Shown in pieces: positions 8,167 to 18,952 of a DNA stretch of 45,324 bases. Every line of letters begins with the position of its first letter. Position 1 is the first letter of the stretch. The notes under the pieces are model-generated. The model was not told the DNA's origin and searched no databases. It saw only the letters and a list, made by a program, of their open reading frames with translations. The stretch covers positions 1-45,324 of the forward strand of contig JACSSA010000159.1 in assembly GCA_014879465.1 (NCBI GenBank). Direction: 5' to 3'. The position numbers were made by a program, and so were the translations under genes. The DNA is from Rhodothermales bacterium (lineage in GTDB: Bacteria > Bacteroidota > Rhodothermia > Rhodothermales > BA12).

Positions 8167-8736
8167 ATGCGTCTCGCACTGCTGCTTCTCGTTCTCGCGG
8201 CCACTCCCGCGACGGCGCAACCATTCGATCCGCACGCGCTCACGTTTGTCTTTGGTAGCGGACCGGGCCTGGGGCGTACCTACCATTGGGGCGGGTTGGT
8301 CACCCACCAGCGCGGCAACGTGGTTTGGACGGCCCAACTGGCGTCGCACCGCCTGCGTCGAACCGTCGTGGCGGAAGAATTCCTTCAAGATGCAGACGCC
8401 TTCGATACCGCTCTGCTCGTAGGCCGGGCCGTGCGCCTACACCAACGGTTGGACGCAAACGCATCGGCGGGGATCGCAGCGGTGCATGTCTGGCGGACCG
8501 AGCCGGCGTGCCGCTACAGCGACTCCGATCCGTACGGTCGTTCCTGTATGCCGTTTCAAGGCACAGCCCCAGCCTCGGGTTGGGCCATCGGTCTGCCGCT
8601 TAATGCGGGCGTTCACGCCGATGTAGGCTGGGGTCTCGGCGTGGGGCTGCGGGCGTTTGCCAACCTCAACGCCGAAGCGTCGTACAGCGGCGTTGCCGTA
8701 GACCTGCGCATCCAGCCCTTGCAGCCCCGCCGCTGA
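8167..8736 (+). CDS. Hypothetical secreted/outer-membrane protein
   Basis: ORF with signal peptide 'MRLALLLLVLAATPATAQ'. Confidence 0.6.
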   Translation: MRLALLLLVLAATPATAQPFDPHALTFVFGSGPGLGRTYHWGGLVTHQRGNVVWTAQLASHRLRRTVVAEEFLQDADAFDTALLVGRAVRLHQRLDANASAGIAAVHVWRTEPACRYSDSDPYGRSCMPFQGTAPASGWAIGLPLNAGVHADVGWGLGVGLRAFANLNAEASYSGVAVDLRIQPLQPRR

Positions 8737-8786
8737 AATCCGGCGACGGCGTGCGTTCGTCGCTCCGCCGTGCGTATCTTTCCGCC

Positions 8787-8867
8787 ATGACGACCCGCAC
8801 CCACGTTTCGCTGCATCTCTGGGGATGGCATCTGGCCTCCGCAGCGGCTGCGCGTGGACGGGCCTAA
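8787..8867 (+). CDS. trpL: trp operon leader peptide (26 aa: MTTRTHVSLHLWGWHLASAAAARGRA)
   Basis: Short ORF with near-adjacent Trp codons (8820-8822, 8826-8828), followed by a terminator hairpin and trpE. Confidence 0.8.
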   Translation: MTTRTHVSLHLWGWHLASAAAARGRA

Positions 8868-8912
8868 CGGCCCGCGTTTCGTCTTGACGACGGTTCCTCT
8901 ACGCCCCGCTGC
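8841..8912 (+). promoter_or_regulatory. Candidate antiterminator pairing of the trp attenuator
   Basis: GCAGCGG (8841-8847) is exactly complementary to CCGCTGC (8906-8912), which forms the 5' arm of the terminator. Confidence 0.6.
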
Positions 8913-8940
8913 CGACCCCGGCGACGGGGCTTTTCGCTTT
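8903..8940 (+). terminator. Attenuator intrinsic terminator upstream of trpE
   Basis: GCCCCG-CT-GCCG-ACCC-CGGC-GA-CGGGGC followed by TTTTCGCTTT. Confidence 0.8.
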
Positions 8941-8978
8941 CCCCCAGAGACGTCACCGATGGGACGTTTCTCCCCCCG

Positions 8979-10493
8979 ATGCCACCTGCGACGACGCTTT
9001 CCCCGATGACCGCCCTGCCCTCGCCCGAGTCCCTTGCCGAGAACGCCCGCGCCCGCGGCCTTACGCGCTTCGCCGTGCCCGTCGTCCGGCGACTTTCGGC
9101 GGATTTGCTCACGCCCGTCTCCGCGTTTCTGGCGCTGCGCGAGGGGGCCGTCGCGCCGTTTCTGCTTGAATCCGTAGAAGGGGGCGAACGGATGGCGCGG
9201 TATTCGTTTCTCGGGCGCAATCCGTACCTGACCGTCCGGGCGTTCGGAGCAACCACCGAGGTGCAGCGGGCGGGCGGAGTCTTTGAGCCGGTGGACGGAA
9301 CGATCTTCGACGTGCTCGAACGCCTTGCCGCCGAGCGTCCGGAAGTGCCCGTGCCCGGCCTGCCGCGCTTCACCGGCGGCGGCGTCGGCTACCTCGGCTA
9401 CGACACCGTGCGGCTGATCGAGCACCTGCCCGACGTGCCGCCCGACACGCTCGGCCTTCCGGATGCGCTCTGGAGCTTCTACCAAGAGGTCGTCGCCTTC
9501 GACCATGTGCAACACCAACTGGTGCTGGTGGCGCAGGCGTTCTGCGACGTTCCGGAGGACGACGGGCGCGCCATCGCCGACGCCCACGCCGCGCTCGACC
9601 GCCTCGCCGCCGACCTGCGCCGTCCCGCTCCGACACCCGCTCCGCTCGTGCTGGGCGAGGCCGTCCCGGAGCGATTCGGGCAAGCGGCCTACGAAGCCGC
9701 CGTGCGACAGGTCAAGCGCCACATATACGAAGGCGACATCTTCCAAGCCGTTCCCAGCCGTCGCACGGGGTTTCGGGTGAACGGCGACGCGTTCCAGCTG
9801 TACCGCGCGCTGCGGCAGGTCAACCCCGCGCCGTACCTGTTTTTCTTGGACTTCGAGGACGTGACGCTCTGCGGCGCGTCGCCCGAGGTGCTGGTTCGGG
9901 TGGAAGACGGACGCGCCGACGTGCTGCCGATTGCCGGAACGCGACGGCGCGGGGCCACGCCGGAGGACGATGCCGCGCTGGAAGCCGATCTTCTGGCCGA
10001 TGCCAAAGAGCGCGCCGAGCACCTGATGCTGGTCGATTTGGGCCGCAACGACCTCGGGCGGGTGTGCGAAACCGGCAGCGTCGAGGTGACGCGCTACGCC
10101 TTCGTGGAGCGCTACAGCCACGTCATGCACCTCGTCTCGCAGGTGTCCGGGCGCGTGCGATCGGGCGTGTCGCCGCTCGACGTCTTCCGCGCCGCGTTCC
10201 CGGCCGGGACGCTCACCGGAGCGCCGAAGGTGCGGGCGATGCAGATTCTCGACGCCCTCGAACCCGAGAAACGCGGCGTCTACGGCGGGGCCGTGGGCTA
10301 CCTCGACATGCGCGGCAACCTCGACACCTGCATCGCCATCCGGACGCTCGTTGTGACCGGCGGCGTGGCGTACTTGCAAGCCGGAGCGGGCGTCGTGGCC
10401 GATTCCGATCCCGCCTTCGAGTTCGAGGAAACCGTGGCCAAGGCGCGGGCGCTGCGGGCGGCGCTCGAAGTGGCCGCCGGCGATTTGCTCTAA
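8979..10493 (+). CDS. trpE: Anthranilate synthase component I
   Basis: 'SPEVLVRVEDGRADVLPIAGTRRRG', 'LMLVDLGRNDLGRVC', 'AFPAGTLTGAPKVRAMQIL'. Alternative start ATG 9006. Confidence 0.95.
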   Translation: MPPATTLSPMTALPSPESLAENARARGLTRFAVPVVRRLSADLLTPVSAFLALREGAVAPFLLESVEGGERMARYSFLGRNPYLTVRAFGATTEVQRAGGVFEPVDGTIFDVLERLAAERPEVPVPGLPRFTGGGVGYLGYDTVRLIEHLPDVPPDTLGLPDALWSFYQEVVAFDHVQHQLVLVAQAFCDVPEDDGRAIADAHAALDRLAADLRRPAPTPAPLVLGEAVPERFGQAAYEAAVRQVKRHIYEGDIFQAVPSRRTGFRVNGDAFQLYRALRQVNPAPYLFFLDFEDVTLCGASPEVLVRVEDGRADVLPIAGTRRRGATPEDDAALEADLLADAKERAEHLMLVDLGRNDLGRVCETGSVEVTRYAFVERYSHVMHLVSQVSGRVRSGVSPLDVFRAAFPAGTLTGAPKVRAMQILDALEPEKRGVYGGAVGYLDMRGNLDTCIAIRTLVVTGGVAYLQAGAGVVADSDPAFEFEETVAKARALRAALEVAAGDLL

Positions 10494-10630: not shown

Positions 10631-11092
10631 ATGCTCAACCCGGTTCTCAACAAGGGCGGCTGGGGCCTTAGCCTCACCCGCGCCGACTCGGTCGAAACCC
10701 TTCAGCCGATCCTCCGCGCCCATTACCAGCTGCTCAACGCCTACGAGTTTGCCCGGCAACAGGCCGGCAACGGCTTCCCCGACCGCGTCGAGAGCGCCCT
10801 CCGAACGTTCCGCACCGACATCGGCAAGATTTCCGAGACGATCTTGTCGTTCGGCGGCGCGCCCTACAACGGCACCGACATCGAGCCGGGCGCTACCGGC
10901 GACACCGAGGCGACACCTGCCCAGCGTATCGAGGCGCTCGACGCCGCCGAGCGCGATCTCAACGACAGCCTCGAAGCCAGCATGAACGTGCCGCAGCAGA
11001 TCCGTACGCTCGCCACGCTCAAACTGCTGCGCAACCACTCCAACGACCGTCTCGCCATCCTGCGCGAAGCCGCCCGCACCGTCCGCGCCTGA
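10631..11092 (+). CDS. Hypothetical small helical protein in trp operon
   Basis: 153-aa ORF between trpE and trpS, same strand; no family firmly recognised. Confidence 0.65.
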   Translation: MLNPVLNKGGWGLSLTRADSVETLQPILRAHYQLLNAYEFARQQAGNGFPDRVESALRTFRTDIGKISETILSFGGAPYNGTDIEPGATGDTEATPAQRIEALDAAERDLNDSLEASMNVPQQIRTLATLKLLRNHSNDRLAILREAARTVRA

Positions 11093-11166
11093 CCGCCCGC
11101 GCCGTGGCCCTGCTTGACGGGCCGTCCGGCAGAACCCTCGCCGGGCGGCCCGTTCCTGTTCCGCCG

Positions 11167-12189
11167 ATGCCTGCTCCCTCTACCCGCCGCGTTGTCCTCT
11201 CCGGCATCCAGCCCTCGGGCACCCTCCACCTTGGCAACTACTTCGGTGCCCTCCGCCAGCACGTCGAACGGTCCAAACACACCACCGGAGACGGCAACGA
11301 CGCCTTCTTCTTCGTCGTCAACTACCACGCGCTGACGAGCCTGCGCGACGCCGACGCGCTCCGGCGCTACACGTTCGACGTGGCGCTCGACTACCTCGCC
11401 CTCGGCTTCGACCCGACGCACGCCGCGCTGTTCGTCCAGTCCGATGTGCCTGCCGTGACGGAGTTGGCATGGATCTTCAACTGCCTCACGCCCGTCGCCA
11501 GACTCGAAAAAGGCGTCGCGTACAAGGACAAGGTGCAGAACGGCCTCGTCGCCAACGCCGGGCTGTTCACGTACCCCATCTTGCAAGCCGCCGACATCCT
11601 GATCTACGGCGGCGACGTCCCGACGGTCGTGCCGGTGGGAGCCGACCAGAGGCAAAACCTCGAAACCGCGCGGGACGTGGCCGATTGGTTCAACGCCGCG
11701 TTTCCCGGCCCCGAAGGCGAACCGACGTTCGCGCTGCCCGAAGCGGAGATTCTCCCCGACGTGGCGATCGTACCGGGCGTGGACGGGCGGAAAATGTCCA
11801 AATCCTACGGCAACACCATCGGGCTGTTCGACGAGGGCAACGTGCTGAAGAAGCGGGTGGCGGCCATCGTCACGGATTCGACGCCGCTGGAAGAGCCGAA
11901 AGACCCCGACGCCGACAACGTCTTCGCGCTCATCAAACTCTTCGCCACGCCCGAGGAGACGGCGGAGATCGCCGCGAAGTACCGCGCAGGCGGTTACGGC
12001 TACGGCCACGCCAAAGGGAGGCTGCGCGAACTCATCGACGCGCACTTCGCCGAGGCCCGCGAACGACGCAAGGAACTGGCGGAACGGCCGGATTTCGTCC
12101 GCGACGTGCTGGCCGACGGCGCTCGCAAGGCCCGCCGTCGCGCCGATGCGGTGATGGACACGGTGCGCCGCCGCACGGGCCTGCGCTAA
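11167..12189 (+). CDS. trpS: Tryptophanyl-tRNA synthetase
   Basis: 'SGIQPSGTLHLGNYFGALRQ' and 'GRKMSKSYGNTI'; track ORF begins upstream at 11104. Confidence 0.95.
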   Translation: MPAPSTRRVVLSGIQPSGTLHLGNYFGALRQHVERSKHTTGDGNDAFFFVVNYHALTSLRDADALRRYTFDVALDYLALGFDPTHAALFVQSDVPAVTELAWIFNCLTPVARLEKGVAYKDKVQNGLVANAGLFTYPILQAADILIYGGDVPTVVPVGADQRQNLETARDVADWFNAAFPGPEGEPTFALPEAEILPDVAIVPGVDGRKMSKSYGNTIGLFDEGNVLKKRVAAIVTDSTPLEEPKDPDADNVFALIKLFATPEETAEIAAKYRAGGYGYGHAKGRLRELIDAHFAEARERRKELAERPDFVRDVLADGARKARRRADAVMDTVRRRTGLR

Positions 12190-12247: not shown

Positions 12248-12837
<590 letters not shown>

Positions 12838-12841
<4 letters not shown>

Positions 12842-13872
12842 CGCCGCCGCTGCGCCCGTACCTCACCCGCATTGCTGGCGGAGACGAACTCACCCGCGCC
12901 GAGGCCGCCGAGGTGATGGGCGTGCTGCTTCGCGGCGAGGCCTCGCCCGAAGAAACCGCCGGGCTGCTCGTCGGGCTGGCCTCTCGCGGCGAAACGGTCG
13001 ACGAACTTACGGGCTTCGCCGAGGCGATGCGGGCGTACGCGGTTTCGGTGGACTGCCCCGACCCCGACGCCGTAGACCTGTGCGGCACCGGTGGCGACCT
13101 CTCCCACACGTTCAACGTCTCCACCGCCGCCAGCTTTGTCGTGGCCGGTGCGGGCGTGACGGTCGCCAAGCACGGCAACCGCAGCGTCTCGTCGCTCACC
13201 GGCAGCGCCGACGTGCTCGAAGCGCTCGGCGTGCAGGTCGGGCTGGGCAAGGCGGGTGTCGAGTTCTGCCTGCGCGAGACCGGTCTCGCGTTTCTGTTCG
13301 CACCCAACTTCCACCCGGCCTTGCGGCACGTCATGCCCGTGCGCCGGGCGCTGGGCGTGCGCACCGCCTTCAACCTGCTCGGTCCGCTATGCAACCCGGC
13401 AGGCGTCCGCCGTCAACTCGTGGGATGTTTTCGCGACTCGGCGGCGCGCAAGGTCGCCGGGATTTTGGCTGGATTGGGGACGGAACGCGCCTTGGCCGTC
13501 TGGGCGGTGGACGGTCTGGACGAGGCGTCGCCTGCCGACATCACCCGCATGTACCCCGTCGACGGCTCCCGCACGCTGCACGCGACGTCTATTGCGCCGG
13601 AAACGTTCGGCCTGCCCCGGCACTCGCTGGAGGAAATTCGCGGCGGATCGGCCACGGACAACGCGCAGATCATCCGCCATGTGCTGGACGGACGTCTCGG
13701 CGCTCCCCGAGACGCCGTGCTGATGAACGCGGCCCTCGGCCTGTTCGTGTCGGGGCGACACGACGACCCTGCCGACGCCTTTGCCGCCGCCGTCGAATCG
13801 GTGGATACGGGTCGCGCCAAGGCCAAACTGGCGGATTTGGTCGCCGCCTCCTGCGCTGCGCCCGTGGCCTGA
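12838..13872 (+). CDS. trpD: Anthranilate phosphoribosyltransferase
   Basis: 'DLCGTGGDLSHTFNVSTAASFVVAGAGVTVAKHGNRSVSS'; GTGA overlap with trpG stop. Confidence 0.95.
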
Positions 13873-13928
13873 ACCGATTACGACTTGTACGGGCTGTTCG
13901 CGAACGGCCCCTGCCACCATCTTCCCCC

Positions 13929-14753
13929 ATGACCATCCTCGACACCATCCTCGACGCCACGCGCACGACGGTTGAACGCCGCCGGAGGGTCGTGCCGCTG
14001 CGTGCGCTGGAAGACGCGCCGGGATTTGCCCGCACGCCGTTCGACGGAGCGCGGGCGCTGCGCTGCACCGACGATCAAGGCCGCGCCGAAGTCGCGTTCA
14101 TCGCCGAGTCGAAGAAGCGCAGCCCATCCAAAGGCCTGCTGCGCCCGGACTACGACGCCGCCGCGAACGTTCGCGCCTACGCCGAAGCCGGCGCGGCGGT
14201 GTCCAGCGTCCTCACCGAACCCGACTTCTTCGACGGCGCGCCGGAGCATCTTCAAGCCGCACGCGAAGCCGCGCCGCTGTTGCCGTTGCTGCGGAAGGAT
14301 TTCGTGATCGACGTCTACCAACTCGCCGAGGCGCGGGCGTGGGGGGCAGATCTGGTGTTGCTGATCGCGGCGGCGCTGGACAAGCACGCCCTCCACGATT
14401 TGCTCGACGGCGCGAAGGCGTACGGCCTGACGCCGCTGGTGGAAGTCCACGACGTGCGCGAACTGGATCGCTTCGAAGTCGACCGCGCGCCCATCGTGGG
14501 CGTCAACCACCGCGACCTGCGCACCTTCGAGGTTGATCTTCAGAAATCGCCGGAGGTGTTTCGCGTGCTGCCTCCGGAGATCGTCCGCGTGGCCGAGTCG
14601 GGGCTGAAAGACGCCGCGACGATTGCCGACCTGCACCGCGCCGGAGCCGACGCCGTCCTGATCGGCGAGACGTTCATGCGCGAACCGTCGCCGGGCGACG
14701 CGCTGCGGCAGCTCCGCGCCGACGTCCACGCCCTGCTCTACCCCACCGACTAA
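13929..14753 (+). CDS. trpC: Indole-3-glycerol phosphate synthase
   Basis: 'FIAESKKRSPSKGLLRPDYDAAANVRAYAEAGAAVSSVLTEPDFFDG', 'VGVNHRDLRTFEVDL'. Confidence 0.95.
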   Translation: MTILDTILDATRTTVERRRRVVPLRALEDAPGFARTPFDGARALRCTDDQGRAEVAFIAESKKRSPSKGLLRPDYDAAANVRAYAEAGAAVSSVLTEPDFFDGAPEHLQAAREAAPLLPLLRKDFVIDVYQLAEARAWGADLVLLIAAALDKHALHDLLDGAKAYGLTPLVEVHDVRELDRFEVDRAPIVGVNHRDLRTFEVDLQKSPEVFRVLPPEIVRVAESGLKDAATIADLHRAGADAVLIGETFMREPSPGDALRQLRADVHALLYPTD

Positions 14754-14757
14754 CCCT

Positions 14758-15390
14758 TTGCCTGTGCGCCCCAAAATCAAAATCTGCGGCTTGACGACGC
14801 TCGAAGACGCCCGGTTCGCCTCCGGGCTTGGAGCCGATCTTCTTGGCTTCGTCCAGCACGAAGCCAGCCCGCGCCACATCCGCCCGGAAGACGCCGCCGA
14901 GATCATCCAATGGATCTACGGCCCCCAAACCGTCGGCGTGTTCGTCAACAAGACGCCCGAGGAGGTCAACGCCGCGTGCGAAACGGCGGGCTTCGCGTAC
15001 GCCCAGCTTCACGGCACGGAGTCGGTGGACGAATGCCGTCGGATCGACCGGCCCGTCATCAAGGCGTTTCGGGTGATGCACGACGCCTCCGCCGAGCAAC
15101 TCCGCGCCGCGATGGAGCCGTACCGCGACGTGGCAGAGATCTTCCTGCTGGATACGCATTCCACCAGCCTGTGGGGCGGCACGGGCGAGAGTTTCAACTG
15201 GCGGCTGGCCCGCGACCTCGCCGCCGACTTCCCGATCCTGCTCGCGGGCGGCCTCACGCCCGAGAACGCGGCCGAAGCCGTCGAGACGATGCGTCCGTGG
15301 GGCGTCGACGTCTCCTCCGGCGTGGAGGCCTCGCCCGGCATCAAGGATTTCGACAAGATGATGGCCTTCTTCAATGCGTTGGAGCCGTGA
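14758..15390 (+). CDS. trpF: Phosphoribosylanthranilate isomerase
   Basis: 'KIKICGLTTLEDARFASGLGADLLGFV', 'LLAGGLTPENAAEAV', 'DVSSGVEASPGIKDFDKM'; TTG start. Confidence 0.92.
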   Translation: MPVRPKIKICGLTTLEDARFASGLGADLLGFVQHEASPRHIRPEDAAEIIQWIYGPQTVGVFVNKTPEEVNAACETAGFAYAQLHGTESVDECRRIDRPVIKAFRVMHDASAEQLRAAMEPYRDVAEIFLLDTHSTSLWGGTGESFNWRLARDLAADFPILLAGGLTPENAAEAVETMRPWGVDVSSGVEASPGIKDFDKMMAFFNALEP

Positions 15391-15513
15391 TCCAACCCGT
15401 TCGCTTTTGTTCGTTGGACGCTCGCTTTGCTCGCGGTTGATGTTGTTAGACGACGCTCCGGCCTCCTGCCGCGCATGCTCCTTCTGACAACCAACCGGTA
15501 TCTACCAACTACC

Positions 15514-16722
15514 ATGCTTCCTCCCAAAACGCTGCGCTACGTCGCGCCCGACGCGACCGGCCACTTCGGCCCGTACGGCGGCTCGTTCATCCCGGAAATC
15601 CTCGTCCCGACGTTCGAGGCGCTGCGGTCGGCGTGGAACGAGGCCAAAAACGATTCGGCGTTCTGGAACGAATGGCGCAGCGTCTTGAACGAGTACGTCG
15701 GGCGACCGACGCCGTTGACCTTCGCCGAGCGGCTGTCCGAGCAGACCGGGTTGAAGGTGTACTTGAAGCGCGAAGACCTCTGCCACACCGGCGCGCACAA
15801 GGTCAACAACACCGTCGGGCAGGTGCTGCTGGCGCGGCGGATGGGGCGCACCCGCATCATCGCCGAGACCGGCGCGGGGCAACACGGCGTGGCCACGGCC
15901 ACCGTCTGCGCCAAATACGGCCTGCCGTGCGTCGTCTACATGGGCGAAGAGGACATGCGCCGTCAAGAGCTGAACGTGCTGCGGATGCGGCTGCTGGGGG
16001 CGGAAGTCGTCCCCGCGACCTCCGGCAGCAAAACCCTCAAAGACGCCACGAACGAGGCCTTTCGCGACTGGGTGGCGCACCCCGACGACACCTTTTATGT
16101 GATCGGCAGCGTGGTTGGGCCGCACCCGTATCCCGAAATGGTGCGCGACTTTCAGCGCATCATTGGCGACGAAGTCCGGCAGCAACTGGCCGAGCGCGAA
16201 GGCCGAGAGACGCCCGACGCGGCGTTCGCCTGCGTGGGCGGTGGCTCCAACGCGATGGGCCTGTTCTACCCGTTCGTGGACAACTGGGGCACCCTCCTCT
16301 TCGGTGCGGAAGCCGCCGGCGAGGGCCTCGGCGGGCGACACGCGGCGACGCTCACGCTGGGCACGCCGGGCGTCCTCCACGGCTCGATGTCGTACCTGCT
16401 GCAAGACGCCGCCGGGCAGGTGCAGGAGGCGCATTCCATCTCCGCCGGGCTGGACTATCCGGGCGTCGGGCCGGAGCACGCCTACCTTCGCGACCTCGGG
16501 CGCGTGCGCTACGAGGCCGTCACCGACGACGAGGCGCTGGCCGCCGTGCAGACGCTTTCGCGGCTCGAAGGCATCATTCCCGCCCTCGAATCCGCGCACG
16601 CCGTGGCGTTGCTGCTGCGCACCGCGCCCTCGCTCGACGCGGGCAGCGTGGTCGTGCTCAACGTGTCCGGACGCGGCGACAAGGACATGCACACCCTCTC
16701 CGAACGCTGGGGCAATGGTTGA
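15514..16722 (+). CDS. trpB: Tryptophan synthase beta chain
   Basis: '[28 protein letters not shown]', '[16 protein letters not shown]', '[13 protein letters not shown]'. Confidence 0.97.
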
Positions 16723-17161
16723 TTCGGCTCCCGACGGCTACCGGCTCTCGTTCGACCGTTCCGAGGTGGATATCGACGCGGTGCACGCCTTCCTGACAGC
16801 CTCGTACTGGTCGCCCGGCATCTCGCGCGAGCGCGTGGCGCGCGCCGTGGCCGGTTCGCTGTGCGTTTCGGCGTTCGCGCCGTCGGGGGCGCAAGTCGGT
16901 TTTGCGCGGGCCGTCACGGACTACGCCTCGTTCGCCTACCTCGCCGACGTGTACGTCGTGCCTGAACACGGCGGGCGCGGGTTGGCGCGAAAGATGACGC
17001 AGGCGCTGCTCGACCACCCAGAGATGCAAACGATTCGGCGCTGGATGCTCGCCACCCGCGACGCGCACGGCGTCTACGAGGCGCTGGGGTTTCACGCGCT
17101 GGAAGATCCCACGAAGGCGATGGAATACCGACCGCCTCGGGGGCAATTCCCTCCCGCCTAA
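16715..17161 (+). CDS. GNAT family N-acetyltransferase
   Basis: '[28 protein letters not shown]...LGFHALEDP'; ATG 16715 overlaps trpB stop. Confidence 0.88.
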
Positions 17162-17189
17162 CGTTCCCTTTTTCAGCCCACGCCCTGCA

Positions 17190-17996
17190 ATGCCCGACTT
17201 ACGCCGCCACCTGCTCGACCTGCGCACGCAAGGCCGCACCGCGATGGGGCTGTTTCTAACCAGCGGCTTCCCCGATCCCGCATCGACCGGCCCCATCCTC
17301 GATGCGCTCGTGGCGGGCGGGGCAGACGTTGTGGAGCTGGGGATGCCGTTCTCCGACCCGCTCGCCGAAGGCCTGCCGATCCAGCGAGCCTCGGCGCGGG
17401 CGCTGGCGCACGGCGTCGCAATGGACGATGCGTTTGAGACGGCGCGGGCGTTTACCGCGCACCATCCGCACATCCCGCTCGTGCTGATGGGCTACTACAA
17501 CCCGGTGTTGCAGTACGGCCTCGACCGGTTTTGCGCCGACGCCCAAGCCGCAGGCGTTGCCGGATTGATCCTTCCCGACTTGCCGCCGGAAGAATCGGGG
17601 GCGCTGGAAGCCGCCGCCGCCGCACACGGCCTCGACGTCACGTTCCTCGTCGCTCCCAACACGCCGGACGAGCGCATGCAGACCGTCGCCGAGCGCTCCA
17701 CCGGCTTCGTCTATGCCGTCTCGTCGCCGGGGCTGACCGGTCAGACGCTCTCTGCCCACGACGCCATCGGCGCGTACTTGGATCGGGCGAAGGCGCTGGT
17801 TGGAGACGTGCCGCTGCTCGTGGGTTTCGGCATCCGCACCGCCCACGATGCCGCCCGGCTCTCCGCCCACACCGACGGCTTCATCGTCGGGACGGCCCTC
17901 ATCGAGACCGTCGAGCGCCTCTGGGACGACCCGTTGCTTTCCGATGCCGAGCGACGGGCCGAAGTGGAAGCGTTCGTGCGCGGCCTGCGTTCGTAA
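17190..17996 (+). CDS. trpA: Tryptophan synthase alpha chain
   Basis: '[26 protein letters not shown]', '[12 protein letters not shown]', '[12 protein letters not shown]'. Confidence 0.96.
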
Positions 17997-18070
17997 GAAC
18001 GAGCATCGTAGAGGGTGTATTGAAAGAGCCTTTTCGATACCCAACCAACCATACACCAACACCATACACC

Positions 18071-18952
18071 GTGTCCATTCTCCGCCTCGGCCTCCCCAAA
18101 GGCAGCCTCCAAGACGCCACCCTTGACCTGCTCAAACGCGCCGGGTACGGATTCCACGTCAAAGACCGCAACTACTTCCCCGGCTCCGACGACGACGAGA
18201 TCGAGGCGATGCTCATTCGGGCGCAGGAAATGGCCCCGTACGTTGCCGACGGCGTGTTCGACGCGGGCATCACGGGCAAGGACTGGGTGAAGGAAACCGG
18301 CAACGAGGGCAACGTGGTGGTCGTGGCCGATCTCGTGTACTCGAAGGCGTCGATGCGGCCCGTGCGGTGGGTGCTGGCCGTCCCGGAAGCGTCGGAGATC
18401 CATTCCGTGCAAGACCTGCAAGGCAAGCGCATCGCCACCGAAGTCGTGCAGCTCACCAAGGCGTGGCTGGCGGAAAACGGCGTCGAGGCCGACGTCGAGT
18501 TTTCGTGGGGCGCGACCGAAGCCAAGTGCCCGGAACTCGTCGATGCCATCGTGGAAGTGACCGAGACCGGCTCGTCGCTGCGGGCCAACCGCCTGCGCAT
18601 CGTCGAGACGCTGATGACGTCCAACACCCAGCTCATCGCCAACGCCGACGCGTGGAACGACCCGTGGAAGCGCCGCAAGATCGAGACGCTGGCCATGCTG
18701 ATGCAGGGCGCGATCCTCGCCGAGGGCAAGGTGGCGCTCAAGATGAACGCCCGCCGGGGCGATCTCCAAAAGATCCTCGCCGTATTGCCCGCACTCAAGA
18801 TGCCGACCGTCGCGCCGCTGGCCGTGGGCGAAGAATGGGTGGCCATCGAGACGGTGATCGAGGAACGCGAAGTGCGTCGTTTGATCCCCGCACTCAAAGA
18901 CGCCGGTGCCGAAGGCATCTACGAGTACCCGATCTCCAAAATCATCCCGTGA
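18071..18952 (+). CDS. hisG: ATP phosphoribosyltransferase
   Basis: '[23 protein letters not shown]', '[13 protein letters not shown]', long form with C-terminal domain; GTG start. Confidence 0.93.

Follow-up and report, generated by a model that had tools for sequence, protein, structure and literature searches.

In Escherichia coli, the trp leader (trpL; Rfam RF00513, Trp_leader) consists of a leader peptide with Trp codons, competing 1:2, 2:3 and 3:4 pairings and an intrinsic terminator before trpE, and segment 2 lies beyond the leader stop codon. A Trp leader also precedes trpE in Sinorhizobium meliloti, where no Trp repressor acts on the promoter and the rnTrpL transcript begins at the trpL ATG and is leaderless (PMC7298713). 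Classical Trp-codon attenuators are described from the Actinobacteria Corynebacterium and Streptomyces, including one before trpS2 in S. avermitilis (PMC1262725). The TRAP and T-box systems of Bacillus likewise provide Trp-responsive transcription attenuation by means of alternative hairpins. Attenuators in Bacteroidetes/Chlorobi were reportedly mentioned by Vitreschak et al. in 2004. When a leader-peptide case in Firmicutes was described in 2010, the survey reporting it was aware of earlier such systems only from Proteobacteria and Actinobacteria (PMC2965389). Within the phylum considered here, a 2021 transcriptome study of Flavobacterium psychrophilum noted, in its main text, strong clues of leader-peptide attenuation before amino-acid operons and named no trp case there (PMC9723704). 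Neither a trp attenuator in Rhodothermota nor a phylum-wide survey was found described in the open-access literature searched.

The locus compared here with these systems lies in a stretch of 45,324 bases, hereafter the window, from a Rhodothermales genome (G000; 2.97 Mb, 219 contigs) that has no family-mate in the genome set and many relatives in its order. By every testable feature, the element at positions 8787–8930 belongs to the ribosome-mediated kind of trp attenuator found in Proteobacteria and Actinobacteria, and we assign a probability of about 0.92 to its attenuating transcription of the trp operon in this ribosome-mediated way. The element shares with E. coli trpL the features listed above but differs from it in that segment 2 lies inside the leader ORF, a Shine-Dalgarno sequence is absent, the leader is apparently leaderless, trpS is part of the operon, TrpR was not found in the genome and no Rfam family is matched. 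No match in the window, T-box included, was obtained at the Rfam gathering score, and a permissive search of positions 8600–9100 gave no match to Trp_leader even at E values up to 10 and none to T-box. In contrast with the window element, trpL of S. meliloti is alphaproteobacterial, encodes a 14-aa peptide, controls only trpE(G) and has another type of promoter. In Actinobacteria, trp operons and a TrpRS gene are attenuated separately, whereas in the window a single attenuator precedes the trp genes together with the only TrpRS gene. Unlike the Bacillus systems, the window element would sense tryptophan through a translated ORF, and TRAP (mtrB, PF02081) had no match in the genome in a search that did find the control from B. 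subtilis.

All features described below are on the forward (+) strand. The initial annotation, made from the letters of the window, had proposed a trp attenuator before trpE, a reading that the anatomy, the folding switch and the relatives support. Its 26-codon leader ORF at 8787–8867 (MTTRTHVSLHLWGWHLASAAAARGRA*, predicted to be leaderless), with TGG codons at 8820 and 8826, was found as described; the two codons are part of TGG-GGA-TGG (Trp-Gly-Trp, 8820–8828), and the Trp cluster is kept in relatives. When both strands of the 45,324-base window were scanned for short ORFs that have a W-x(0-2)-W motif and a terminator no more than 110 nt past the stop, this ORF alone was returned. Segment 1, the protector strand (8801–8814), pairs with 8844–8848 and 8852–8857, and the 1:2 protector fold of 8787–8858 has a computed free energy of −27.8 kcal/mol. 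Segment 2, the 5' strand of the antiterminator (8841–8858), lies within the leader ORF, begins 12 nt past the last Trp codon and was placed by folding and by a register common to the relatives. Segment 3 (8898–8914) comprises both the 3' strand of the antiterminator (8898–8912) and the 5' arm of the terminator (8903–8914), and covaries with segments 2 and 4 in relatives. The intrinsic terminator hairpin (8903–8930, with segment 4 at 8919–8930) is GC-rich, begins 35 bases past the leader stop, folds at −20.9 kcal/mol and is followed by the U run, TTTT, at 8931–8934, as the initial annotation had it. The exact complementarity between GCAGCGG (8841–8847) and CCGCTGC (8906–8912) pointed out there also stands and is extended by folding to an antiterminator helix of 15 bp between 8841–8858 and 8898–8912. 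This helix encloses the small hairpin CGGGCC-TAAC-GGCCCG (8859–8874) previously noted over the leader stop codon; the hairpin is present by folding, and no shared counterpart was seen in the relatives inspected.

The folding of RNA 8780–8945 proposed earlier as a check showed it to be more stable than dinucleotide shuffles (z = −2.56), and masking of the footprint of a stalled ribosome flipped the structure. With a ribosome stalled such that its A site holds the last Trp codon, the probability of the terminator was 0.01, as opposed to 0.90 with the ribosome at the stop codon and 0.90 for ribosome-free RNA. Of the ribosome positions envisaged in the initial annotation, the stalled one would indeed leave the antiterminator strand free; a ribosome at the stop would cover approximately 8847–8878, i.e., the 3' part of that strand, and not GCAGCGG itself as had been supposed. 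Several relatives switched like the window in masked folding; the candidate 1:2 protector pairings of relatives were scored. In other relatives the terminator was thermodynamically favoured even in the starved state, which counts against the attenuator reading and means that kinetics must be invoked for them; in all such relatives the 5' arm of the terminator pairs upstream, with probability 0.5–1.0, before the 3' arm has been made. Also counting against this reading is the presence of only two Trp codons (WGW) in the window leader, as most relatives have WW or WWW.

From this anatomy we infer a course of events of the classical kind. When charged tRNA-Trp is scarce, a ribosome would stall at 8820–8828 and cover segment 1, leaving segment 2 (8841–8858) free to pair with segment 3 (8898–8912) and so block the terminator, and polymerase would then continue through the operon, trpE-orf-trpS-trpGDCFB-A. 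With Trp-tRNA in the charged form, the ribosome would reach the stop codon or depart, segment 2 would be covered or paired again with segment 1, the terminator at 8903–8930 would form and transcription would end before trpE.

The genes that would be under this control are, in order, trpE, orf10631, trpS, trpG, trpD, trpC, trpF, trpB, an acetyltransferase gene and trpA. The first, trpE (8979–10493), encodes anthranilate synthase I (Pfam PF04715 and PF00425); translation may actually begin at 9006, an in-frame ATG, instead of 8979, since relatives align from about residue 15–30. The genes trpG, trpD, trpC, trpF, trpB, the GNAT acetyltransferase gene and trpA occupy 12248–17996. The acetyltransferase gene (16658–17161) lies between trpB and trpA, and a similar gene follows trpB in relatives from families f10 and f12. 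Close behind trpA on the same strand is hisG (17190–18952), and a HisG match occurs about 1.2 kb past trpA in L238. The tryptophanyl-tRNA synthetase gene trpS (11104–12189) follows trpE, or trpE and a gene of the orf10631 type, in 19 of the 20 regions of the class that were examined, and searches of six genomes, that of the window included, found no second TrpRS gene in any of them. With the sole TrpRS gene placed in the operon, the charging signal and its producer would be regulated together.

The gene between trpE and trpS, orf10631 (10631–11092), codes for a ferritin-like or DUF2383-like protein of 153 aa that is conserved at this place in the order, at 27–38% identity; it was not found in the sister order and had no Pfam match at E 0.001. 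A four-helix bundle with a ferritin/Dps-like fold was predicted with confidence (pLDDT 89), the best PDB matches were Dps and bacterioferritin, none of them below E 0.001, and DUF2383 was weakly matched by 6 of 15 orthologs. PDB profile matches to TAL-effector repeats were dismissed as spurious, since none of their stretches passed.

Conservation was assessed by scanning 450 bases upstream of trpE for short ORFs that contain a Trp pair and have a terminator behind them. The Trp-codon ORF that the initial annotation would have had relatives lack, if mistaken, is carried by many of them: a Trp-cluster leader with terminator was detected before trpE in 71 of the 101 class genomes (46/72 in the order and 25/29 in the sister order) and, as a Trp pair with terminator, in 26 of 40 genomes from other classes of Bacteroidota, as compared with a rate of 0.4–0.8% in dinucleotide shuffles. 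Relatives in the class with such a leader include Rhodothermus marinus (G016), in agreement with the placement of the host in Bacteroidota that had earlier been left conditional; G012 is presumably Salinibacter ruber DSM 13855. The upstream leader signal is Trp-specific. In the comparison between amino acids, a Trp pair with a terminator occurred in 71 of 100 class genomes, as opposed to 0.75% of shuffles, and WWW with a terminator in 43 of the 100 and in 21 of 40 genomes from other classes, whereas triplets of 11 other amino acids with a terminator occurred in at most 2 and 3, respectively. The distance from leader stop to terminator was 20–41 nt in 34 annotated relatives. In 30 of the 101 class genomes no leader was detected by the scan, which counts against the attenuator reading; these absences were clustered, with a leader in none of 3 genomes of family f4 and in 3 of 16 of f15, and with further absences in f22, f28, f41 and f42 from other classes. 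Three members of f4 (L034, L037 and L038) have a strong terminator 150–170 nt before trpE that is not accompanied by a Trp leader, and the neighbourhood of trpE in G003, the f4 genome looked at, showed no further trp gene. A simple search for an in-register antiterminator failed in f24, f31 and f45 of the other classes, where leader and terminator are both present.

By itself, the antiterminator of the window was marginal against shuffles (p = 0.05, or 0.27 with a stricter score for short helices), and the case for an attenuator therefore rests on the relatives. Among 24 distinct sequences of the order with segments 2, 3 and 4 in register, 84% of the cells of the 2:3 antiterminator helix were paired and 6 of its 9 pairs showed two-sided changes, as opposed to 29–45% of cells and 1–2 pairs in slid controls, figures that are not probabilities because segment 2 was picked for best pairing, which inflates the 84%, and because the sequences are related. 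The 3:4 terminator helix had 94% of cells paired and two-sided changes likewise in 6 of 9 pairs, against 0–2 in slid controls, such that the compensatory changes called for in the initial annotation are present in each of the competing helices. In an independent test, in which the leader segment was shuffled and the median per family taken, combined p values for antiterminator complementarity were 1.7e-7 for 12 families and 1e-10 for 30 families. A three-way matched change was evident within one genus: segments 2/3/4 are GCGGTGGGC / GCCCACCGC / GCGGTGGGC in R. marinus and GCAGTGGGC / GCCCACTGC / GCAGTGGGC in G044.

These comparisons bear on the other explanations of the locus. The terminator before trpE is strong, and the three f4 genomes carry one with no Trp leader, as would be expected if it were constitutive or factor-controlled (the terminator of the upstream gene or one of TRAP type) and the Trp-codon ORF incidental; this is nevertheless very improbable, given that ORFs with Trp clusters, and with Trp only, adjoin the terminator far above chance, that covariation links the terminator arm to a strand within the leader ORF and that TRAP is absent from the genome. 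Slightly less probable still is translational attenuation, in which leader translation would govern access to the trpE start and the hairpin would act on translation: other systems are known in which a leader peptide controls translation, but a U run follows the conserved 3' hairpin in nearly all relatives and the hairpin ends well upstream of trpE, the U run of the window being separated from the trpE ATG by 44 nt. That the parts came together by chance in GC-rich intergenic DNA, for which the marginal statistics of the window antiterminator might speak, has a negligible probability and is already contradicted by the comparative data, as tens of genomes from many families show this anatomy, which is unique in the window.

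Features of the ribosome-mediated attenuator that set it apart from the textbook case emerged from comparison of 97 leaders. Segment 2 most often begins 12–13 nt past the last Trp codon and lies wholly within the leader ORF in 75 of the 97. The leading edge of a ribosome with a codon in its A site is about 11 nt beyond that codon, and stalling at the last Trp codon would thus place the ribosome just short of the antiterminator strand. The window has a candidate −7 box, TATCTTTC (8775–8782), that is near the Bacteroidota sigma-A consensus TAnnTTTG and ends 4 nt before the leader ATG, and a weak −33-like element, GTG (8751–8753; consensus TTG), 21 nt before that box; a spacer of 20 nt between TTG and the −7 box is the commonest in relatives (59/97). 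In F. psychrophilum the −7 box occupies −12 to −5, according to the transcriptome study (PMC9723704), and the same spacing applied to 8775–8782 would place +1 at 8787, the A of the leader ATG. Of the 97 leaders, 82 had their best −7 box ending 4–8 nt ahead of the start codon, and a good promoter at the leaderless position was present in 70 of 97 as compared with a shuffle mean of 4.4 (maximum 8), a count flattered by taking the start with the best promoter in leaders with several possible starts. A Shine-Dalgarno-like 4-mer was noted in only 1 of the 97. Judged from promoter geometry, transcription of the trp leader appears to start on the ATG or only a few bases away from it, and the leader is probably therefore translated as a leaderless ORF. 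This geometry, the antiterminator strand inside the leader ORF and the single trpS in the operon go beyond the initial annotation.

With regard to the wider group, we lean towards the view that much of Bacteroidota uses an old leaderless trp attenuator, in which the promoter abuts the leader ATG and the antiterminator strand lies in the leader ORF about one ribosome edge past the last Trp codon, and which in Rhodothermia would also control the only TrpRS gene and thereby provide direct feedback on the charging of tRNA-Trp. The locus offers an RNA element absent from Rfam and a concrete trp attenuator that extends across a class and much of a phylum in which promoters and translation starts are unlike those of the textbook. 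Leaderless mRNAs are rare in Bacteroidota (5.5% in F. psychrophilum according to PMC9723704; in Bacteroides thetaiotaomicron approximately 3.7% of 5' UTRs are shorter than 10 nt), and a conserved leaderless regulatory ORF would for this reason be a useful model for the translation of such ORFs.
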